A stretch of DNA of 64,000 nt, taken from contig JAGBEO010000013.1 in the NCBI GenBank assembly GCA_017936885.1, forward strand, positions 1 to 64,000, given 5' to 3'. The position numbers and the translations under genes were made by a program. Below, piece by piece: positions 39,218-50,154 of the stretch. The notes under the pieces are model-generated. The model saw only the letters and a list, made by a program, of their open reading frames with translations. It ran no database searches and was not told the DNA's origin. This DNA comes from Lachnospiraceae bacterium. Its GTDB lineage: Bacteria > Bacillota > Clostridia > Lachnospirales > Lachnospiraceae. How positions within the stretch are numbered: the first letter of the stretch is position 1; every line of letters begins with the position of its first letter.

Positions 39218-39469
39218 CTAGCAGTTACCGCAGCAGGATAAGAGGATCAGAATCCAGATCCAGGAACAGCAGTTGTTGTCATTGCCGTTGTTGAAAAAGC
39301 CAAAGCCATTGCCGCATCCGCAGCCATCATTATTGTTGCCGCATCCACAGCAGGATAAAAGGATCAGAATCCAAATCCAGGAGCCGCATCCGCCGTTAAA
39401 AAAGCCGCAGCCGCAATTATTATTATTGTTGTTGTTACATCCGCAGTGAGTTGCTGTTAAATCACTCAT
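39218..39469 (-). CDS. Duplicated Cys/Gly/Asn-rich small protein
   Basis: The 83-residue protein is two copies of one unit. Each has a Gly/Asn/Cys-rich part (CGCGFFNGGCG and CGCGNGFGFFNNGN) followed by SWIWILILLSCCG. The DNA copies (39233-39265 and 39352-39384) are nearly identical, so the duplication is recent or kept by conversion. The hydrophobic SWIWILILL segments and paired cysteines recall small spore-associated YjcZ-type peptides, but no exact family can be named. GGAGG lies 9 bases before the ATG. Confidence 0.65.
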   Translation of the reverse strand: MSDLTATHCGCNNNNNNNCGCGFFNGGCGSWIWILILLSCCGCGNNNDGCGCGNGFGFFNNGNDNNCCSWIWILILLSCCGNC

Positions 39470-39675: not shown

Positions 39676-40872
39676 ATGGCGGGATTTGAGGTTGCAGGCA
39701 GAAAGTTTCGTACAGAGTCGGATTACAAAGCCGCATTGCGTGATCAGGCTAAGATAGAAGAGATTAAGTCTAAAGTCAATATGCAGCAGCCGGGAGAAGT
39801 GATTACGCTGTATGCGGATATGCAGATGGGCAAGTATCGCTTTGAAACAACGGTCGGCAATGACTTTGATGACGAAATCTATGAATTGGCACAGAAGTAT
39901 AAGAGCCAGGGTTATAATAAAGACAGCAGAATTTCTTCAAACAGAAGGAAGAAAACCGCGAAAAAGCATAAAGAAGTCTCTCAGAAGAATTCCGGAAAGC
40001 AGACAAAAAGCAGTATGACAAAAGAAATCTCTCTGGATGATTATGATGAGGATATGCGGAAGGAAATTATTGCAGAATTAAAAAAGAGAGATAAACGCCG
40101 CAGGCTTACAGTGGTATTGTGTTCGATTACAGCAGCTGTTTGTTTTGGATATTTCGGAATCTATTATTACTTCTCTGACAGAACGCAGATGGATTACGAG
40201 AATCTGGCAGAATTGAAAGGCAATACTACTTTGTCAGGGGGAAATTTGCCGGGCATGACAATCCATTATACGGAAGATGAAGAGATAGAACTGACGGTTT
40301 TGGAAGAATATCAGACTTTATATAATAAGAATAAGAAATTAATCGGATGGCTTAAGATTGATGATACCAATATAGATTATCCCGTCATGCAGACATCGAA
40401 TAATGAATATTATCTGGATCACAATTACAATCAGGAATATGACAAGAACGGAAGCCTGTTCATGGATAAGGATTGTGATGTGGTGCATAGGAATACAAAT
40501 CTGATTATATATGGACATCATATGAAATCGGGTAAGATGTTTGGTAATTTGAATAAGTACAGCAGTGAAGAGTATTGTAAAAACCATTCGACGATTCAAT
40601 TTGATACCATATATGAAAAAGGAACCTATGAGGTTATGTATGTGTTCCGTTCCAGGATCTATAATGAGGACGAGGTCGTGTTTAAGTATTATCAGTTCTT
40701 TGACGCCGCTTCTGAGAAGGAATTTGAATCTAATATGCAGGAGATGGCGGCATTGTCCTTGTATGACACCGGCGTGACCGCAAGCTATGGAGATGAGCTG
40801 CTGACTTTGTCTACGTGTGATAATTCAGAGCAGGACGGAAGGTTTGTGGTGGTTGCTAAGCGGGTTGAGTAG
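39676..40872 (+). CDS. Class B sortase with cytoplasmic N-terminal extension
   Basis: The 398-residue transpeptidase attaches surface proteins to the cell wall. Residues about 144-166 form a membrane helix. The C-terminal domain is class B: IGWLKIDDTNIDYPVMQ, YLDHNYN, GSLFMDKDC, then His281 in IIYGHHMKSGKMF, Cys381 in LLTLSTCDN and Arg389. The first 143 residues precede the helix and so should be in the cytoplasm. They contain a mixed alpha/beta part (FEVAGRKFRTESDYKAAL) and a Lys/Arg-rich linker, an addition not found in short SrtB proteins. The two large surface proteins downstream carry matching sorting signals and are probable substrates. Confidence 0.9.
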   Translation: MAGFEVAGRKFRTESDYKAALRDQAKIEEIKSKVNMQQPGEVITLYADMQMGKYRFETTVGNDFDDEIYELAQKYKSQGYNKDSRISSNRRKKTAKKHKEVSQKNSGKQTKSSMTKEISLDDYDEDMRKEIIAELKKRDKRRRLTVVLCSITAAVCFGYFGIYYYFSDRTQMDYENLAELKGNTTLSGGNLPGMTIHYTEDEEIELTVLEEYQTLYNKNKKLIGWLKIDDTNIDYPVMQTSNNEYYLDHNYNQEYDKNGSLFMDKDCDVVHRNTNLIIYGHHMKSGKMFGNLNKYSSEEYCKNHSTIQFDTIYEKGTYEVMYVFRSRIYNEDEVVFKYYQFFDAASEKEFESNMQEMAALSLYDTGVTASYGDELLTLSTCDNSEQDGRFVVVAKRVE

Positions 40873-40890
40873 TAATAGTATAATTTTATA

Positions 40891-40918
40891 TTGACATCTT
40901 TGGAACATCTGTTATAAT
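40891..40918 (+). promoter_or_regulatory. Sigma-A promoter before a structured RNA candidate
   Basis: Perfect TTGACA (40891-40896) and TATAAT (40913-40918) are separated by 16 bases. Transcription would begin at about 40925, where the structured element begins. Confidence 0.75.
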
Positions 40919-40923
40919 TTGAC

Positions 40924-41018
40924 TAAGCAATGAAATTCTAACGGAAAAACGTTCCAAACTCTAAATTTCTTTAAAGTACTGAAAATCGGTACTTTATCTG
41001 TTTTAGAATCCTTGCTTA
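40924..41018 (+). ncRNA. Candidate structured RNA with a three-way junction
   Basis: TAAGCAA (40924-40930) pairs perfectly with TTGCTTA (41012-41018). Inside, across a small internal loop, ATTCTAA (40935-40941) pairs with TTAGAAT (41003-41009). Two hairpins lie between: GGAA/TTCC (40943-40955) and TAAAGTAC/GTACTTTA (40972-40996, 9-base loop). All stems are perfect. It lies right after a strong promoter and before a decayed gene. It has no T-tract after it, so it is not a simple terminator. It matches no class I know. Predicted by eye only. Confidence 0.5.
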
Positions 41019-41137
41019 AAACTCATAAAACAGAAGGCGGGGATGAATGCAGACTTTCATTATGGCGTGTGTAAATCTTTGCCGCCATACATGGAAGGAG
41101 AAAAACAAGGTGAAAAGTCTTGTGTTATCAGGAATGA

Positions 41138-41362
41138 GTCCGAGAATGTATTGATCAGGATATTTTGAGAGAGTTTCTGAAAATGGATCGAAGGGATGAG
41201 GTTGCCGCTGGAAAAGAAGAAGGAAAAGAAGAAGAGCATGCTAAAATGGTAATTGAAATGGTAAATTCGGCGATGGAAAATTTTCAAGTGGATTTGGAGA
41301 CTGCATGCAAAGGTTTGAGTATTACGGTAGAAGAATACCAAGCTGCAAAGGAGAAACAATAG
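41138..41362 (+). pseudogene. Remnant of an Rpn-family (PD-(D/E)XK) recombination-promoting nuclease
   Basis: The open frame follows a stop at 41135 and reads VRECIDQDILREFLKMDRRD, then EVAAGKEEGKEEEHAKM and an ITVEEYQAAKEKQ-type end. The combination 'ECI(x)3ILREFL' followed by a Lys/Glu-Gly repeat tail is the C-terminal end of Rpn-like putative transposases that are frequent in Lachnospiraceae. The nuclease domain, normally about 200 residues upstream, is missing; stops occur in all frames. A translated 65-residue fragment from TTG at 41165 is possible but unlikely. A strong terminator follows. Confidence 0.6.
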
Positions 41363-41372
41363 TTCAAAGATT

Positions 41373-41415
41373 AAAAGCCGGTGAGTCGCTTAGAAAGAGA
41401 GACTTACCGGCTTTT
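41373..41415 (+). terminator. Strong Rho-independent terminator
   Basis: AAAAGCCGGTGAGTC pairs with GACTTACCGGCTTTT over 15 bp (one G-U pair) around a 13-base loop. Confidence 0.92.
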
Positions 41416-41455
41416 TGCAGCCTGTTCCGGTGCAAGTTTCCCACCCACAAAATAC

Positions 41456-41483
41456 TTGCATAAATCTTGGTATATGATAAAAT
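41456..41483 (+). promoter_or_regulatory. Promoter of the large surface protein gene
   Basis: TTGCAT (41456-41461), 16-base spacer, TAAAAT (41478-41483). It is nearly a copy of the sortase promoter, with a shared ACAAAATACTTGCA block. A leader of about 235 bases separates it from the start codon; I see no known riboswitch in it. Confidence 0.75.
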
Positions 41484-41728
41484 AGTGATGTATGTAAAAC
41501 AAAATATCATGGGCGTATTGTGATGGAAAAACTAATCAAATCATAGTACGTTGCCGATACATATATATAAATATTTTGTCATAGAGACGGACTCACTATT
41601 TTAGAATGTTTCAGAAATTGTAATAAAATATAGGGGTGTGCCGGCTTTAGCTGTGCACTGAAATTGAAGCAGTCGTATGCAGATATTTACGTATAGACAG
41701 AATTACCCAGGGGAGTAAGGAGAGCGCA

Positions 41729-44700
41729 ATGTCTAAGAAAACACCAGCAAAGAAAACAAGAAGATTGAAGAGAAGCATAAGACGGAGTCTTGCGGCAGTA
41801 TTGATGATTACGGCGATTGCTGTCGCAGCTGTGCCGGTGCCGGAGAATGCGGCTGCACCGGATGCAGATACAGATGCCAGTGGTGCAGACACCGGATATA
41901 AAGAAGTTGTGAGCAGTACTATTACATATGAACCAGCTACCAACATTATCTACTCGCTGGATATATTTGAAGGCGGATTGTATTGGCAATATAAAATTGA
42001 CAAAGATAGAAATAAGGTAATACAGTATAACATTGAATACCCTTCGCCTTCTTTGACATTGAATGAGAATGCACCCACAAATTATACTTATGTTAAAAAG
42101 CAAACATTTGATGATTTTGTTAATAACACAAAATATGAATTATCTTTAAGTACCTATAATACAGCTGACAAAAGAACAGCAAAAAAATTTTTTGAAACGT
42201 ACTTTTCTAACGATCAGGAGTATATATCATTTAAGGAAAAATTGAAAAATTATGACAGTTTATCCGAGGATATCACAATAGAAAGAGGCGTTGCTAATTT
42301 AAGTGATACTGATCGGCGAAAATATTACTGTAATTTAAATCCGCTTATGGTGGATCATATTCTGGTTCCGATTAGAAATGAAATTACAGATACAGAAGTT
42401 TTAGGGCAGATTGATGATACTCCTGTTGGAACTATCAATACTGCAGAGTTGATTTATATTCCTCAGTATATTGGTGAAGATAGTCTGGATATGACAACGC
42501 ATGATGCAAAAGGATATCTCCTTTCTTCCAGCCAGTTACAGTACGAAAGTACACAGAAAATCAAACATGTTGGAAATTATGCTTTTGCAGGAGCGGGATT
42601 ATTGCAGTCTATTGATCTGCCGAAGACATTAAGCTCAATAGGTACAGGCGCGTTTATGAACTGCTCCTATTTGCAGTCAGTAAATATTCCGTTTCTTACC
42701 GAGGTTTCTGCTGGTGCGTTCAAGAACTGTGCCAGCCTTACAATAGTGAACTGGTGGACAACAGGGGAAGATGGAAGAAGTTCAGGATTGGTGACGATTG
42801 GGGCAGAAGCCTTTTATGGAACCGGTATTCGGGAAAATGAGAGTGGAACAGGCGTGTTGAAATTCCCGATTGGAATAACAGAAATAGGGGATGCCGCTTT
42901 TTACGGATGCGGTGCAACGAATATTGAATTTGATTCCGGACAATCGACAACAACACAGCAGGTGACTATAAATAAGTATGCATTTTATGATAACACTTAC
43001 TTAACGAAGGTATCCTTTAATGATAAAAATGTTAAAGGATTTAGCGATTATTGCTTTGCGGTAGGAGTATCTAAAAATTCGATGACGGAATTTACTTTCC
43101 CGAATTCGTCCTTTACCACAGGAAAAGGAATACTTGCAAACCGGACAGCGTTAACCAAGCTAACCGTTCCTGAAAATGTGGGTAACCTTGCAGGAGATAT
43201 TCTGACAGGGTGTACGAATCTTGGCGTGGCAGAGTTCTTAGGTGTAGACACAACATATGAACCGGATTTGTTTAATGATGTTACAAATGAAGAGTTTTAT
43301 GTTACCGGATATGCTACGATGAATACTGCGGATAAAAAGGATGATGTATCTAATGCAAGTAATCCGAGAAAGTCAACGTGGGATGCTGAGAAAACAGCAG
43401 CAGATCAGTATATTCCATACAAATATACGTTAAACGGAAAAGACTATTATGAAATCTGCAGCGGTGAAGGCTATCTGGAGAGTATTGAAATTAATAAAGA
43501 TGGCAAGGGAACACTGACATCTGTTGATTTAAAGGATGGAGTTGTAATTAAAAATGGTGAATTGGTGATCCCGGATAAAGTGGGAAGTACTGAAGTAACC
43601 AAAATAGCTTCGGATTGCTTTAAAGGGAAAGACAAAATAGCTGGCAGTGTCAGATATCTTACCATTGGAAATTATATTACGGATATTGAAGATTCTGTAT
43701 TTAAGTCATGGTCGGTATTGGAAGAGGTTGATATAGGAAAGTCCATCCAAACTATTGGAAAAGAAGCATTTGCTGATTGTGAAAATCTTACGGATGTGAC
43801 ATTTGCTACGCCTGACAATTATGAGACACTTAAGGCTATCGGAGCAGATGCTTTTGCTACAAATTCTGGTAAATTGACGCTTCACGGTGACTTGGTAGAT
43901 GGATATGCACCTTTTGAATATGCGGTAAATCCTAATAACTATGTAAATGGTAAGGCGCTTACTTCTGGTAATGTCAATAAATATAGAATTCTTTATCAGA
44001 GCCGATGGGATAGTCCTTCGTCTAAACATATGTCGGTTATATATGGGGAATATGACGATGGAAAAGGTTATGTGACTTTAGTGGATTATCCTCTATATAA
44101 AGATTTCTATGGTGGTGTTGATGGAACGAATTTGAGTATGGATCTTCAGGAACATAATGCCGATATGGAGAAGCAGTTTTACAATGCTTTTGGTAATTAT
44201 TTGTATCCAACCGAAGAAGATACCTATCTTGAAAAGAAGGTTAAGTTTGCGAAAGCATATGGAGAGGCCACTAATGATGCTGACATAAATGCTTTGTATA
44301 ACTCGGAACTTTACGGACCGTGGATCAATCCATCTTTCTGTAGCAACTATGAAAAATGGGCTGCTCAAGAATGGGTAGATAAGTATGATTCGGCAGATTC
44401 TATGGGTGTCGGAGTTTTGGACTGGTTGTTTCAGCCTATGACGGTCAAAGCAGCAAATGGACCAAAGCCTTACTTTGAGAAACATCCTTATAATTTCTTG
44501 GAAAATTACTTGAAAGCTGATGGAGATCGCTCCTTAATTACAGTTGAGTATATAGATGGCTGGACATTTGATGAAGAAGCGATGATGAAAGCTGTCGAGG
44601 AAATTGTAATTCCGGCAGGCATTGATTCTATTGATATTAAGAGCTATTATGATGCAAAGAACTCTGGCGCTACGAATATTGCCAGCAATAGCGCTAATTA

Positions 44701-47224
44701 CATACTGTATTTTGGAAAGAGCAGTGACACCAACAGAGAGGGAATCTTTGTATATAATGTGGACGATGAAGAAGCCGGTCTTTTCAGAGGGAAGATTGAC
44801 GATGGTTATTCTGAAAACGATAAGCCGATAGATTATGGTGAACATAAGACAGGAAATGACCGAATCAAGATCGTGGACATGGGCCAGTCTAATGTTGCCT
44901 ATATACCGGATTATGCTTTTGAAGACTGTCAGTTGTTGGAGAGCGTAGCTATTCCTGCAAGCTGTACGGCAACTGGAGCGTTACCGTTCAAAGGATGCGG
45001 AGAACTGGCAATACTTACAAGTAACAGTGAATATGTTCCTGCTAAGAACGGTATCCTTTATCAGAGGAAAGATGATGCCAGCTATGAATTAGTAGAGTGT
45101 ATTTTAGGAAAAGGCATTAATGGTGAAGATGGTACGATCAATGCAGCCAATGATGATCCGTACATCAGCATGGTTAGCAGCATTGGAGAAAGTGCATTTG
45201 AAGATTGCAGCGGAATTACTTATGTAGATTTAACAAGTATTGATAATGGTGCTTCTATTAATAAACTGAAGTTTATTCCAGATTATTGTTTTAAGAATTG
45301 TGATAATTTGAGAAAAGTATATCTGCCGCTGACAACGAACGATATAGGGCAAGAAGCTTTTGCTAATATCAGAGAAGAGTACTATTATGGGCTTAACAGC
45401 GATACACCGAGATTGGAGATTACGATCAAAGGTTCAGAAGTTAACATTTCGGAAACTGCTTTTGATCCGAAGAAGGATACAAGTGTAAATCCGAATGAAA
45501 GTACCATAAATATGGTAACTATATGGACCTATGAGGATACCGCAGCAGAGCGATATGTATTAGAACAGCGAAAACTGGGTTATGATATCAGACTTGGAGA
45601 TGATAATACAAAGTATCTTGCTCAGACGATAAGGGTTAACTTTTGGGATTATGATGGAACAGCTTTGTGTGATCCCGTTTATCTTGGAGAAAATGAAGAC
45701 CGCATCAATGAAGAAGATATTCCGGAAGCAGTTGTGGCAAAGGTTACGGAAGCTAAACATAGACCAGGATATAAGTTTAAAGGTTGGCTGAGTACCGATG
45801 GGCAGGCTCTTGGAAAGAAAATTGAAACAGATGAGATTACCTATATTGCTCAGTATGAGTCGGATGGTACTTTAGTAAACGGAAAGTATGAAATTTGTTT
45901 CGTAGATGGAATAGATGGCAGTTCATTGTATGGAGCAGGGGCTACGAAGGTTGGTTCGAGATGGGTATATTATATTGAACCGTTGCCGTCTGATTCTAAG
46001 GAAACGTTAAATTTTGATTATTTATTCAAAACTTCAGACGGAGAGATTGAAGCTCCTACAGAAAAAACACATGACGGCTATGAATTCGTACAGTGGAATG
46101 CAAATGCAAATGCCTGGACAACGGCAACTGAAATTAACTCCAGTATGACGATTATTTCATTGTATAAGCAAACTATAACGAATACCAGTGGTAACACCAC
46201 AAATACCAGTGGTAATACCACAAATTCTTCTAATGGAACAACGAATAATACAAGCAAGAACAGCAGTAGTTCCAAAAACAGCAGTTCGACCTCCAGCAGT
46301 AATACCAGCAGTTCCAGTAACAGCTCCAGTACCTCCGGTTCTGGTTCCACGGCGGGAGTTTACACAGTATTAGTAGAGAATGGAAGCGGAAGCGGAAGCT
46401 ATACAGCAGGAAGTACCGTTATTATTGCCGCTAATACTCCGGCTGAGGGTATGGTATTCAGCAAATGGACGACAGAATCTAATGGTGTAAATTTAGCGAG
46501 TGTGAGCTTACCGGCGACAACCTTTGTCATGCCGGCGAATAACGTAACAGTTACAGCCAATTATGTAGCAGGCAGCGCCAATACTCCGGCTGCTACCGGC
46601 ACAAACGGAACAGGCAACGGCGGCTCCACCACCGGAAACAACGGCAACACAACAGTGGATATCACCAAGCCCGGTATCTCTAACAAAGACTTGGCAACTG
46701 CAAATGTGAGCGGTTCCACAGATAACTTTATTGTAAAGATTTCCGAGACTGACGAGGCGACACAGGCAGTTGCCGCAGCGCTCACCAATAAGTACGGCAG
46801 TCTGGATAACATTCTTTACTATGCGATGGATATCACTTTGTGGGATTCCACCGGAACATATCAGCTCACGGGCAGTCAGGTTGAGGGACTTTCTGTAGAT
46901 ATTACGATACCGATTCCGGATGCATTAGTGGCTTACGGCGGTAATAATATGGCGGGAGCGGTTGTAAACGGCAATCAGTTAGAGAACTTGAACGAGAACT
47001 TTACAACGATTAACGGTGTTCCGTGTATCCGTTTCACAGCGACTCATTTCTCACCGTATACGATCTACGTAGATACGGGTAACCTGACAGAGGGTATGTT
47101 GGACGTAACACCGAAGACCGGTGATCCGATTCATCCGAAGTGGTTCTTATCGCTTGGTCTTGCCTGCTTATCCATCGTCTTATTCATGAAGAAAGACAAG
47201 AAAGTAAAGGCGAAAACAAAATAA
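41729..47224 (+). CDS. Giant BspA-like LRR cell-wall surface protein
   Basis: This 1831-residue protein has a signal peptide (basic RRLKRSIRRSLAAVLMITAIA). BspA-type LRR_5 repeats lie at about 270-450, 630-720 and 1060-1260, e.g. LQSIDLPKTLSSIGTGAFMN and LEEVDIGKSIQTIGKEAFA. Two Listeria-Bacteroides (Flg_new)-type repeats follow near 1290 and 1390, then a Ser/Thr/Asn linker, a repeat ending VMPANNVTVTANY, and a module ending RFTATHFSPYTIYVDTG. The C-terminus is a sorting signal: PKTGDPIHPKWF (from 1795), a hydrophobic helix and a Lys-rich tail. It is probably anchored by the nearby class B sortase and binds host or glycan ligands. AAGGAG precedes the ATG. Confidence 0.9.
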   Translation: MSKKTPAKKTRRLKRSIRRSLAAVLMITAIAVAAVPVPENAAAPDADTDASGADTGYKEVVSSTITYEPATNIIYSLDIFEGGLYWQYKIDKDRNKVIQYNIEYPSPSLTLNENAPTNYTYVKKQTFDDFVNNTKYELSLSTYNTADKRTAKKFFETYFSNDQEYISFKEKLKNYDSLSEDITIERGVANLSDTDRRKYYCNLNPLMVDHILVPIRNEITDTEVLGQIDDTPVGTINTAELIYIPQYIGEDSLDMTTHDAKGYLLSSSQLQYESTQKIKHVGNYAFAGAGLLQSIDLPKTLSSIGTGAFMNCSYLQSVNIPFLTEVSAGAFKNCASLTIVNWWTTGEDGRSSGLVTIGAEAFYGTGIRENESGTGVLKFPIGITEIGDAAFYGCGATNIEFDSGQSTTTQQVTINKYAFYDNTYLTKVSFNDKNVKGFSDYCFAVGVSKNSMTEFTFPNSSFTTGKGILANRTALTKLTVPENVGNLAGDILTGCTNLGVAEFLGVDTTYEPDLFNDVTNEEFYVTGYATMNTADKKDDVSNASNPRKSTWDAEKTAADQYIPYKYTLNGKDYYEICSGEGYLESIEINKDGKGTLTSVDLKDGVVIKNGELVIPDKVGSTEVTKIASDCFKGKDKIAGSVRYLTIGNYITDIEDSVFKSWSVLEEVDIGKSIQTIGKEAFADCENLTDVTFATPDNYETLKAIGADAFATNSGKLTLHGDLVDGYAPFEYAVNPNNYVNGKALTSGNVNKYRILYQSRWDSPSSKHMSVIYGEYDDGKGYVTLVDYPLYKDFYGGVDGTNLSMDLQEHNADMEKQFYNAFGNYLYPTEEDTYLEKKVKFAKAYGEATNDADINALYNSELYGPWINPSFCSNYEKWAAQEWVDKYDSADSMGVGVLDWLFQPMTVKAANGPKPYFEKHPYNFLENYLKADGDRSLITVEYIDGWTFDEEAMMKAVEEIVIPAGIDSIDIKSYYDAKNSGATNIASNSANYILYFGKSSDTNREGIFVYNVDDEEAGLFRGKIDDGYSENDKPIDYGEHKTGNDRIKIVDMGQSNVAYIPDYAFEDCQLLESVAIPASCTATGALPFKGCGELAILTSNSEYVPAKNGILYQRKDDASYELVECILGKGINGEDGTINAANDDPYISMVSSIGESAFEDCSGITYVDLTSIDNGASINKLKFIPDYCFKNCDNLRKVYLPLTTNDIGQEAFANIREEYYYGLNSDTPRLEITIKGSEVNISETAFDPKKDTSVNPNESTINMVTIWTYEDTAAERYVLEQRKLGYDIRLGDDNTKYLAQTIRVNFWDYDGTALCDPVYLGENEDRINEEDIPEAVVAKVTEAKHRPGYKFKGWLSTDGQALGKKIETDEITYIAQYESDGTLVNGKYEICFVDGIDGSSLYGAGATKVGSRWVYYIEPLPSDSKETLNFDYLFKTSDGEIEAPTEKTHDGYEFVQWNANANAWTTATEINSSMTIISLYKQTITNTSGNTTNTSGNTTNSSNGTTNNTSKNSSSSKNSSSTSSSNTSSSSNSSSTSGSGSTAGVYTVLVENGSGSGSYTAGSTVIIAANTPAEGMVFSKWTTESNGVNLASVSLPATTFVMPANNVTVTANYVAGSANTPAATGTNGTGNGGSTTGNNGNTTVDITKPGISNKDLATANVSGSTDNFIVKISETDEATQAVAAALTNKYGSLDNILYYAMDITLWDSTGTYQLTGSQVEGLSVDITIPIPDALVAYGGNNMAGAVVNGNQLENLNENFTTINGVPCIRFTATHFSPYTIYVDTGNLTEGMLDVTPKTGDPIHPKWFLSLGLACLSIVLFMKKDKKVKAKTK

Positions 47225-47229
47225 TGATG

Positions 47230-47274
47230 TAACGGTTCGGTTTACGATACTAAAGATCGGACATCGAACCGTTA
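47230..47274 (+). terminator. Hairpin between the two surface protein genes
   Basis: TAACGGTTCG pairs with CGAACCGTTA over 10 bp around a 25-base loop. No T-run follows, so it may attenuate or stabilise the transcript rather than end it. The second gene follows by 24 bases and has no clear promoter. Confidence 0.4.
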
Positions 47275-47298
47275 TACGATAACTCCAGGGAGAATCCT

Positions 47299-50154
47299 AT
47301 GGGAAGAAACGTAAGAAATCTGATTGGCGCACTGCTCTTGGTATCAGCCATTGTAGTGACACAGATTCCGGTATCAGATGTGGAAGCGGTAGAAACCTCT
47401 TCTGCATCTGATTTTAAAATGAGCGGAACTACATTAGTGAAATATAACGGCACGGCTGAGGACGTGTCTATTTCTAATTATGTAGAAAAGATAGAGGCGG
47501 ATGCTTTCGCAGGTAATGATTCTGTGAAGCATGTTACGATAGGTGATGCGGTGGAAGTGATCGGTGCCGGTGCCTTTTCCGAGTGCTCTAATCTTGAGAG
47601 TGTAACCATTCCCGATTCCGTGGAGCGCATAGATAATGCTGCCTTCAGCGGCTGTCCGCGATTGTCGAAGGTGACCATCGGAACGGGGCTTTCGGAGCTT
47701 GGAAACGGTGCTTTTGCAGGATGCTATAGTCTGGCTAAGATAGATATAGACAGCAGTAATCCTAAGTTTAACTGTGATGACGGTGCAGTCTATAATAAAG
47801 GATCGAATGGCAGAAGCATTTTATATCAGGTACTGGCAGGCAGAAAGGATGATACCTACACGATGCCTTCCACGGTTAAGCAGATCAAGCCTTATGCCTT
47901 TTGGGGAGACTATAATCTGGAGAATGTTTCGGTCAGCAGCAATGTCAAAGAAATCCCCGGCTATGCATTTTCCAATTGTAAGAATCTGAAAGAAGTTAAC
48001 ATTCCTTATTCAGTCAATTCTATTGATATGAAGGCTTTCGAGGATTGCGTGAGACTGCGTGAGATTATGATTCCGCCGTCTGTTAATTCTATACATGCTA
48101 CGGCATTTGACGGCTGTACGAAGTTAAAGATTGATGCAGAAGCAGGTTCTACGGCGAAGACGTATGCAGAAAGCCTGATTTTGGAGGATTTCGAGGTGTC
48201 TGAGCATGAAGATGCACCGATTCCTTCTGATGGTGATAAGAGCAGTGTATCCGGTAATGACAGTGATGGACAGGAGCAGATAGCTGCACCTGTAGACTAT
48301 TACCATGAAGTATCTCATATGAATGCCATGGAGGAAGAAGAGAACTCTTCTGTGAAAGGCAAGACAAGGATCATCGGACAGGAAGCTTATGTGATCGTAG
48401 ATAATGCGGAGGCTACCGTCAATGTGGGCGGTACAGGAGCTACATTAGGCGGAAGTTCCGAGGTGGAAATAGAACAGAATAAAGATACTGTACCGGGACT
48501 GGCAGGGTCAGAAGATGCCAAAGGCGGTTCGTTCCCGAAATATTCGGTGATAAATAATACAGTGATTGCCGCACAGGCATATTACAGAGATGAAATGACC
48601 GGCTATACGATACCGGAAGAGGTTGGGAGAATAGGCGAATTTGCTTTTGCCAGATCCCATCTGCAGTCTGTTAGAATTCCCGATGGCGTAGAAGAAATCG
48701 GATATGCGGCTTTTTACCATTGTGACAGTTTGACTGATGTAGTCATTCCTCAGAGTGTGCAGAATATTGAGGTGGCCGCCTTTGCGAAAACCCCGTGGCT
48801 TACTGAATGGGAGCAGAACGGTAACGGTGATTTCCTGATTGTGGGAGACGGTATTTTATTGGATTATCGTGGGGAAGGCAGTGTTGTTGACATCCCTGAC
48901 AGGGTAAAGCAGATCGGTGCGGAAGCTTTTAAAGAGTGTGACAGCATAACAAGGGTACAGATTCCTGATAGTGTGGAAATTATCGGAGAGGCTGCCTTTG
49001 CGGGCTGTAAGAACCTGACTTCGGTAGAGGGCGGAGATTATGTCAGAGAGATCAGAGACAGAGCCTTTGCGGGCTGCCCTATCACTACGGTCAGAATTCC
49101 GGCTTCTGTGGAGAAGATTGGTCTTCGGGCCTTTGACAGCACGGATTCCGGTAAAGCAGCGGATAGCAGTGTGATTGTTTTGGAAGGAGATACGCTTCCG
49201 AAGCTTTCCTATGAGACAGGTGCAACGAAGTTATATCGTGATGCGTATCGCGATTTGGCATTCAAAGGGAATACTGTAGCGGTGGTACCGGAGAATGTTG
49301 CAGATCTGTCAGATACGGTACTGGCTGCTGATCAGGCAGGTTTTAACGGTGTCATCTGTAAAATAACCAAGGAAGCTGCAGACGGCGAGGATGGAATCTT
49401 GCAGATTGTCGGACGGCAGGGGGTAGGCGCAAGCCCTGCGGCAGGTGATGCTTATCAGATCGATGGTAAGACGTATCTGTTGGAAGAAGGGGAAGAGAAG
49501 CTTGCCAATGCTGATTGGCGGAAGCAATCGGATGAAACCGATATTGCTGTGGAGGTGAACAGTTATTCGATTCCGCAGGATGGTATTCTCAGTGCTGTTA
49601 TGGAAGACAATGACGGAGCTTATTTAATTCATATCGAAGACAGTGAGGATGCCAAAGCAGAAATCGGCGATGTATATAAGAAGATATACGGTAATAAATT
49701 ACCACATAATTTATGTGCTTATGAAATTACCATGACGGAACAGAATACGGGAATTCCCATTACAGGTTTGGGAAAACGGAGTGTGGAAGTGACGATACCG
49801 ATGCCAAACGGTATCAGGGAAGATAATCTCCATGTAGTATGTCTGGATGCAGACGGACAGTTGGAAGAAGTGGAGAGCAGTATCGTATCTGTGGACGGAA
49901 TGGATGCGCTTAGATTTACGGCGAAGCATTTTTCATCATACGGTATTTATAATTTTGGTTCTGGCAGTAATATGGTGGTAGCAGATGTTGAGGAAGGGCA
50001 GGCAGTATTTGCTTCTCTTGGTAATAAGGATAATTCTCCCGATACCGGTGATCATAGTATTCATCCGAAGTGGTTTTTCGGAGCGGGTCTTTTCTTTGCT
50101 TCGATGGCGGTGTTTTTCTATCGCGGCGGCAGACGTAAGAGAAGAAGTGCCTGA
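47299..50154 (+). CDS. BspA-like LRR cell-wall surface protein
   Basis: The 951-residue protein has a signal peptide (LIGALLLVSAIVVTQIPVS), LRR_5 repeats at about 50-290 (LESVTIPDSVERIDNAAFSG, LKEVNIPYSVNSIDMKAFED) and again at 410-620, an Asp/Glu/Ser-rich linker between them (about 300-400), and the same C-terminal module as the preceding protein (VEVTIPMPNG, RFTAKHFSSYGIYNFG). It ends with PDTGDHSIHPKWF (from residue 914), a hydrophobic helix and RGGRRKRRSA. The sorting motif and IHPKWF block match the first protein, so both should be sorted by the same enzyme. Probably co-transcribed with it. Confidence 0.9.
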   Translation: MGRNVRNLIGALLLVSAIVVTQIPVSDVEAVETSSASDFKMSGTTLVKYNGTAEDVSISNYVEKIEADAFAGNDSVKHVTIGDAVEVIGAGAFSECSNLESVTIPDSVERIDNAAFSGCPRLSKVTIGTGLSELGNGAFAGCYSLAKIDIDSSNPKFNCDDGAVYNKGSNGRSILYQVLAGRKDDTYTMPSTVKQIKPYAFWGDYNLENVSVSSNVKEIPGYAFSNCKNLKEVNIPYSVNSIDMKAFEDCVRLREIMIPPSVNSIHATAFDGCTKLKIDAEAGSTAKTYAESLILEDFEVSEHEDAPIPSDGDKSSVSGNDSDGQEQIAAPVDYYHEVSHMNAMEEEENSSVKGKTRIIGQEAYVIVDNAEATVNVGGTGATLGGSSEVEIEQNKDTVPGLAGSEDAKGGSFPKYSVINNTVIAAQAYYRDEMTGYTIPEEVGRIGEFAFARSHLQSVRIPDGVEEIGYAAFYHCDSLTDVVIPQSVQNIEVAAFAKTPWLTEWEQNGNGDFLIVGDGILLDYRGEGSVVDIPDRVKQIGAEAFKECDSITRVQIPDSVEIIGEAAFAGCKNLTSVEGGDYVREIRDRAFAGCPITTVRIPASVEKIGLRAFDSTDSGKAADSSVIVLEGDTLPKLSYETGATKLYRDAYRDLAFKGNTVAVVPENVADLSDTVLAADQAGFNGVICKITKEAADGEDGILQIVGRQGVGASPAAGDAYQIDGKTYLLEEGEEKLANADWRKQSDETDIAVEVNSYSIPQDGILSAVMEDNDGAYLIHIEDSEDAKAEIGDVYKKIYGNKLPHNLCAYEITMTEQNTGIPITGLGKRSVEVTIPMPNGIREDNLHVVCLDADGQLEEVESSIVSVDGMDALRFTAKHFSSYGIYNFGSGSNMVVADVEEGQAVFASLGNKDNSPDTGDHSIHPKWFFGAGLFFASMAVFFYRGGRRKRRSA

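Follow-up and report, generated by a model that had tools for sequence, protein, structure and literature searches.

The sortase locus and its two surface proteins

Several class B sortases with near-identical pentapeptide motifs can coexist in a single gut Firmicute, and the question is how each of them finds its own substrates. The locus that raises this question here lies in the draft genome (3.57 Mb) of a Lachnospiraceae bacterium (assembly GCA_017936885.1), at positions 39676..50154 of the first 64,000 nucleotides of contig JAGBEO010000013.1; this whole stretch is referred to as the window. All on the forward strand, the locus encodes a class B sortase followed by two large surface proteins, A and B, that carry the same short block, IHPKWF, shortly after their sorting motifs. 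We propose that it is a dedicated sortase module in which substrates are defined by a PxTGD motif, a spacer of 0-2 residues and a membrane-proximal block of the general form hydrophobic-x-P-[KR]-[WY]-[FL] (here IHPKWF) running into the membrane helix, a reading that we consider moderately probable.

The sortase (398 aa; 39676..40872) scores 161 bits against TIGR03064, above the curated cut-off of 153.75, and its PDB relatives are sortase B (SrtB) structures (best match 2oqw, E-value: 1e-37), which bears out its earlier assignment to class B. Three residues that are presumed to be catalytic, His281 (40516..40518), Cys381 of the TLSTC sequence (40816..40818) and Arg389 (40840..40842), are invariant in alignments of 20 and of 45 sequences. 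Protein A (1831 aa; 41729..47224) contains BspA-type leucine-rich repeats (LRRs; Pfam LRR_5, E-value: 3e-52) and InlB-B-like repeats (Flg_new_2, E-value: 9e-12), and LRR_5 repeats are also found in protein B (951 aa; 47299..50154; E-value: 3e-90). The N-termini of both proteins, read by eye, are signal-peptide-like. At the C-terminus, the motif and block are TPKTGD-P-IHPKWF in A (47108..47146; translation TPKTGDPIHPKWF) and SPDTGD-HS-IHPKWF in B (50035..50076; translation SPDTGDHSIHPKWF), followed in each case by a hydrophobic stretch and then a basic end. A sequence-only reading of the window had described tails of exactly this kind (PxTGD, one or two residues, IHPKWF and a membrane helix) and had remarked that the Leu of LPXTG is absent from them; translation agrees on both points, coordinates included. 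The anatomy of the locus, the pairing across genomes and the pattern of conservation are observed directly; we infer that the sortase cuts the tails of A and B, with the cut between the Thr and the Gly of the motif, and reads the block.

Co-occurrence of the tail and the sortase

In its own genome, the exact IHPKWF pattern was found in the DNA solely at the ends of A and B, and none of the ten matches with two mismatches is such a tail. A profile built from 43 tails likewise found A and B only (A, itself a profile member, with an E-value of 1.8e-22 and B, which is not a member, with an E-value of 3.8e-13), so that the genome-wide search proposed earlier for proteins ending in PxTGD and IHPKWF returned these two proteins alone. 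This genome held no match to PF00746 (Gram_pos_anchor) over the cut-off and none to TIGR01167 (LPXTG_anchor) at E ≤ 0.01, and other kinds of tail could escape all three models. With TIGR01167, tail A scored 15.1 bits against a cut-off of 15.9, and tail B gave no match.

Among 299 Lachnospiraceae genomes from 298 genera (the family sample), exact IHPKWF occurs in 31 (36 matches) and the reversed control pattern in one; a chance origin of the block was rejected on this basis. Thirty-five of the 36 matches are the ends of A or B, in 30 genomes, while the last (G296) was rejected as a sorting tail because it lies inside an unrelated frame and not at a protein end. When the family sample was searched with the sortase, 40 genomes gave matches above 245 bits. 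All 30 genomes with genuine exact tails have such a sortase, on the same contig as the tail in 27 and on different contigs in three (G060, G128 and G277). The probability that 30 of 30 would fall by chance within 41 of 299 genomes is approximately 2e-32 if the genomes are independent, which they are not quite. The tail profile (E < 1e-9) found 40 genomes, and every one of them has the sortase (G208 by a fragment); conversely, 39 of the 40 genomes with a sortase above 245 bits carry the tail. The single sortase genome that does not, G137, is 81% complete and has its sortase on a contig of 4.5 kb. G208 was considered as a case of a tail with no sortase and was rejected as a counter-example, as its 100.8-bit sortase fragment runs off the start of the contig. 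Many of the tails found are members of the profile by construction; the new ones are those of G208, G147, G079, G045 and G233.

In the genus of the window, the tail is present in 60 of 60 genomes, with two to four profile matches per genome (two as a rule), and the sortase (E ≤ 1e-65) is present in 57. The tail is near a contig end in the other three (G592, G602 and G646), which neither support nor refute the pairing; the G592 contig stops approximately 1.3 kb upstream of A, inside another open reading frame (ORF). These counts in family and genus uphold the claim of the sequence-only reading that the system is dedicated, and its expectation that this sortase and this signal would co-occur in other genomes. 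We also examined the best 80 loci from a scan of named genomes, titled mostly as Lachnospiraceae metagenome-assembled genomes. Because these named loci overlap the family sample (L162 and G274:C71, for example, are contigs of equal length) and are rich in near relatives from around the genus of the window, they add depth rather than independence. A block tail is seen in 66 of the 70 named loci with more than 9 kb of downstream sequence.

At the level of the class, the tail profile matched two of 291 genomes at E ≤ 1e-4, both of them Lachnospiraceae. No tail match at this threshold was found outside the family in approximately 281 genomes of the same class (291 minus ten family genomes seen among the 22 listed rows, which are apparently ordered by kinship). 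Two tail patterns had no match in viral contigs and, at E ≤ 1e-30, three plasmid records held relatives of the sortase, with 44-48% identity over less than half of the query. A mobile origin was rejected for want of a viral tail match and of a near sortase match in plasmids.

Conservation of the block

To describe the conservation of the tail, 38 A tails were taken from the family genomes on the basis of length and the pattern P-x-T-(G/A)-(D/E); the P and T of the motif are thus fixed by the selection, and D or E was also a criterion. In the block, K and W are present in all 38 tails, F in 37, P in 36, and I and H in 31 each. In the motif, D is present in 37 tails and G in 32 (Ala in the other six), and the variable residue is Lys in 29. 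One more A tail, a partial one from G045, has the sequence FTQTKWL. Conservation is thus stronger in the block than at the position that follows the expected cut site, with K and W kept in 38/38 tails and Gly in 32/38. At the block positions the synonymous codons vary while the residues are fixed, and several nearby helix positions vary freely. The spacer between TGD and the block is 0-2 residues in length (one residue in 34 of 35 family A tails, and one or two in B).

This pattern bears on an explanation by shared descent only, according to which A and B belong to one LRR family inherited vertically with the sortase in a slow-evolving locus and the block has no special role. In its favor are the LRR_5 repeats common to A and B, a leuS gene upstream in 39 of 63 named loci and two of four family loci with room for one, and the lack of tail-pattern matches in viral contigs and of near sortase matches in plasmids. 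We nevertheless think it improbable for three reasons. First, the block residues are fixed despite mixed synonymous codons, next to several helix positions that are free. Second, the end branches of the sortase tree are long (median 0.46 changes per column). Third, P-K-W-F persists longer than the Gly of the motif itself.

B homologues, recognised by a homology test, are less uniform; an earlier set of neighborhood counts for the B gene is left aside, since A and B match each other. Among the 18 B tails with PxTG in the family sample, the P[KR][WY] core is kept in 13; among seven family genomes in which the B homologue has a membrane tail and no PxTG, it is kept in one (Fisher p = 0.021, with no correction for kinship and with seven further B homologues that have neither PxTG nor a membrane tail not counted). 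This linked loss is the best sign that I-H-P-K would have a part in sorting, whereas the Trp may be a membrane feature. The earlier description of the block as conserved therefore holds for A (P 36, K 38 and W 38 of 38), but not for the evenness of that conservation, as B keeps the core in 13/18.

A second explanation is that the block is a mere feature of the membrane interface: Lys-Trp-Phe would mark the start of the stop-transfer segment and fix the height of PxTGD, and the sortase would read PxTGD alone. The position of the block immediately before the membrane helix and the tolerance of a 0-2 residue spacer are what this explanation would lead one to expect, as is the retention of a Trp near the helix start in nine of the 13 B membrane tails without PxTG that were found in all sets. 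Only one of these 13 (G241), however, has the full P-K-W core, and the conservation of I-H-P exceeds what an interface would appear to need. Furthermore, [KR][WYF] follows the motif in none of 30 generic family tails (with one W among them), taken as one locus per genome from 73 genomes with a TIGR01167 match; as 28 of these begin LPxTG, 25 of them LPxTGG, they are a control for LPXTG and not for all PxTGD tails. Together with the different block types owned by sister sortases (below), these observations lead us to regard the interface explanation as rather unlikely.

We also asked if one face of the helix that follows the block is conserved. In the 38 A tails, the test gave p = 0.018 at the best angle of 90-110 degrees and p = 0.07 at 100 degrees; in 65 near relatives p was 0.44 (best angle), and in 13 B tails it was 0.34. 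For the sortase helix, p was 0.05-0.10. A conserved face of the substrate helix is a lead only: the test was suggestive in A, whereas B and the near relatives gave a negative result.

Sister sortases and tandem modules

In a tree of 69 sortases, 37 members of the sortase clade are on one branch (Shimodaira-Hasegawa-like approximate likelihood ratio test [SH-aLRT] support of 93), ten sister sortases are on the adjacent branch (support of 100) and the node joining them has a support of 86; 22 of the 66 inner branches of the best tree are weakly supported. The 32 other sortases in the tree were chosen by score and tail matches rather than at random, and three of the 40 clade genomes (G060, G128 and G277) are outside it. 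The tails beside the 37 clade sortases have PKWF in 33 cases and KW variants in three, that of G137 being unknown. Beside the ten sister sortases, seven tails are IDPRYF-like and one each has DPKFM, NPVFF and SFHIIF. The seven IDPRYF-like tails (L253-L258 and L261) comprise four with DPRYF and one each with DTRYF, DPRYL and DPRLI, and in all seven PxTAD replaces PxTGD. With the sister loci included, the TGD and TAD labels change six times on the best sortase tree. The TAD motif in A is associated with a B homologue lacking PxTG (Fisher p = 0.0065), a link that we do not claim because it comes down to two independent pairs on supported branches (four on all branches). In a Pfam scan of nine partner proteins (from the ten sister loci minus L256 and L261, plus L202), eight have LRR_5; no Pfam family was found at E ≤ 0.01 in the partner protein of L258 (742 aa).

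In three loci (L169, L181 and L184), a second sortase is located upstream of the IHPKWF module, beside a protein that ends in TPKTGD-(P/A)-(V/L/M)(Q/E)YR. In L184, both tandem tails start with TPKTGDP and then diverge. By eye, the tandem partner proteins are LRR-like and resemble protein B. Tails of the (Q/E)YR type are also seen at the locus start in L177 and L187, the second sortase itself being seen in L169, L181 and L184 only. In many of the neighborhoods fetched for other sortases, including those of the two other sortases of the window's own genome (L197 and L198), no PxTG tail was found nearby.

Structure of the sortase

An AlphaFold model of the sortase made with 45 sequences is of moderate confidence overall (predicted local distance difference test [pLDDT] 79.6, predicted template modelling score [pTM] 0.55). 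With this model, the first 19 rows of a Foldseek search are SrtB structures (best E-value: 3e-18; TMt 0.72-0.86), and the catalytic part matches SrtB of Bacillus anthracis, Staphylococcus aureus, Clostridium perfringens and Clostridioides difficile, with 2oqw and 1rz2 the nearest.

The membrane helix of the sortase (residues 144-166; 40105..40173) contains two tyrosines that are conserved in the clade alignment, Y159 in 35 and Y163 in 36 of the 37 clade sortases. In the sister sortases, Tyr is not among the three commonest residues at the position of Y163 (these account for eight of ten rows).

The N-terminal cytoplasmic region (residues 1-80; 39676..39915) belongs to no Pfam family, with no Pfam match over the cut-off for residues 1-145, and appears as a domain in the aligned AlphaFold model only, where its pLDDT is 81-97 per 10-residue block. 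Folded alone without an alignment, it gave a pLDDT of 57.9, a pTM of 0.36 and a different topology, with two paired strands in place of a helix of the aligned model. As this single-sequence model is poor and differs from the aligned one, we do not claim a fold for the region. A search of 41 genomes gave a single match to the region in each of 23, which are 23 of the 25 from the genus, every match being in a frame of 390-434 aa; the region is absent from some clade members.

The sortase search gave up to six matches at E ≤ 1e-20 per family genome, with at most six candidates scored for each. The window's own genome also encodes two lipoprotein-like proteins of sortase fold (L004 and L005) that are below the Pfam cut-off and do not have the usual TLSTC motif.

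Proposed mechanism

In the general sortase route, which we take to apply to A and B, a signal peptide exports the protein, the C-terminal helix and charged end stop it in the membrane, where the sortase, itself membrane-bound, cleaves behind the Thr of the motif and joins the protein to peptidoglycan. The block is located where the tail enters the membrane. Its Lys-Trp-Phe end could set the tail at the membrane surface with the motif held at the right height, and, probably together with the first part of the helix, the block would also let this sortase subfamily distinguish its partners from other PxTGD proteins. The joint occurrence of tail and enzyme in many genera suggests that the sortase may read beyond the five-letter motif. 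The sequence-only reading had suggested a dedicated system that reads an extended signal. Co-occurrence supports the dedicated part of this claim; the extended reading is plausible, in that the block is better conserved than the motif Gly, the sister blocks differ, and block and PxTG tend to vanish together.

Several observations weigh against the proposed module. Since the profile was made from tails of these same loci, their recovery is by construction. Bit scores alone give no sharp edge to the clade (247, then 234), although the tree places the lowest two sortases tested (G079 and G233) inside it and the 234-bit sortase of G251 (locus L202) outside. This second, distant sortase of G251 adjoins a VPKTGGP-IHPKWA tail, and the block is therefore not strictly exclusive to one clade. 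Four of the 70 named loci with sufficient downstream sequence do not show a complete block tail: neither A nor B is present within 10 kb in L117, L136 and L149, and the contig of L181 ends inside a large ORF. Five of the 18 B tails with PxTG are without the P[KR][WY] core, and 14 of the 32 B homologues in family loci are without PxTG, seven of them without any membrane tail. The variable spacer prevents the block of A and that of B from occupying the same register in the catalytic groove. For readout within the membrane, it is unfavorable that the residue equivalent to Y163 is also Tyr in 11 of 22 other sortases. Finally, shared descent explains part of the conservation, because A and B are related LRR proteins and the locus often keeps its place.

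The 0-2 residue spacer argues against the block being a fixed extension of the catalytic groove. Given this variable spacer and the weak result of the helix-face test, we favor a composite signal and keep recognition at the level of the membrane as a bolder reading: that Lachnospiraceae class B sortases share PxT(G/A)D and are kept apart by the post-motif block (IHPKWF, IDPRYF or (L/M/V)(Q/E)YR) and the substrate helix, partly through Y159 and Y163 of the sortase helix. We put this forward tentatively and consider it rather unlikely.

Neighboring genes

Directly downstream of B, the window encodes a protease of the subtilase family (PF00082; 50342-51277). This gene bears on a further explanation, in which the block would direct a different step (retention at the translocon, for instance, or the action of a separate membrane protease) and the sortase is incidental. 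Of 68 named loci with room for one, 41 have a subtilase gene downstream, and the spacing of the block is not fixed, both in line with this idea. Among family loci with room, however, it is found in just 14 of 31, the start of the subtilase ORF has no evident signal peptide (by eye), and co-occurrence with the sortase is complete where testable. We therefore regard a role in another step as very improbable.

Just upstream of the sortase, on the reverse strand (39218-39469), is an ORF of 83 aa with Gly/Cys/Asn-rich near-repeats and two hydrophobic stretches. Five close relatives of the locus (L123, L124, L125, L128 and L129) have extra DNA between the sortase and A, such that A begins approximately 2-4 kb past the sortase. 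Extra DNA before A is also present in the close relative L320, where the sortase itself is beyond the contig end and the ORF upstream of A presumably resembles Rpn-type nuclease/transposase genes.

Comparison with known sorting systems

A requirement for residues past the pentapeptide has already been published for other class B sortases, and the kind of system is thus known. One close likeness is to SrtB and AbpA of Streptococcus parasanguinis, in which a class B sortase gene is beside that of one dedicated surface adhesin and the residues after the motif (LPKTS-AVK) matter: a mutant without AVK alone lost amylase binding, that paper's measure of surface display (PMC4974636). AbpA, however, has no hydrophobic helix and ends in AVK, whereas the window tails comprise a full helix and a charged end, with a block of greater length. 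NF040525, which by its name models the LPKTxAVK type of SrtB, gave the window sortase 53.2 bits, far below its cut-off of 200.

To be fully active, SrtB of B. anthracis (NPKTG-DE) depends on Asp at P5, Asp at P2' and Glu at P3', beyond NPKTG itself (PMC11987632). The P2' Asp is also kept here, in 37 of 38 A tails (D or E being a selection criterion). The B. anthracis motif starts with N, against T or S (once N) in the window type, where the conserved block is farther out, at about P4'-P9', by the membrane.

C. difficile SrtB is, like the window sortase, a clostridial class B enzyme with non-Leu (S/P)PxTG motifs, some of them PxTGD, and two native post-motif residues improved the cleavage of three motifs at least 2-fold (data not shown in that paper; PMC4155245). 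Against the (S/P)PxTG rule, SPDTGD of B fits, while in TPKTGD of A a T replaces S/P; both have the helix and basic end, which in C. difficile keep the substrate at the membrane (PMC5569036). C. difficile differs in having a single sortase with scattered substrates, and three of its substrate tails, for example SPKTGDNTNLYG, have no IHPKWF-like block (PMC4155245).

PEP-CTERM with exosortase and GlyGly-CTERM with rhombosortase are similar in that C-terminal signals were tied to a dedicated enzyme by co-occurrence. Exosortase and rhombosortase are not known to be related to sortases. The window locus has an ordinary class B sortase, and genomes of the genus have two to four tail-profile matches each.

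No mention of the strings HPKWF, IHPKWF, PKTGDP or TGDPIHPKWF and, among the matches listed, no paper on the locus was found in the open-access literature, subscription papers being outside the search. In the open-access literature, there is accordingly no prior description that we could find of the sortase clade, the IHPKWF tail or the sister blocks.

Significance

The tail profile can serve as a marker for this surface-anchoring system, for which no Pfam or NCBIfam model matched the tail over its cut-off. The tandem pairs, which share PKTGD and have different blocks, constitute a natural experiment on reading past the pentapeptide, and at the membrane. If the bolder reading of the block and helix as a membrane address is true, then Lachnospiraceae class B sortases would choose their substrates at or in the membrane, and not only in the groove of the active site.

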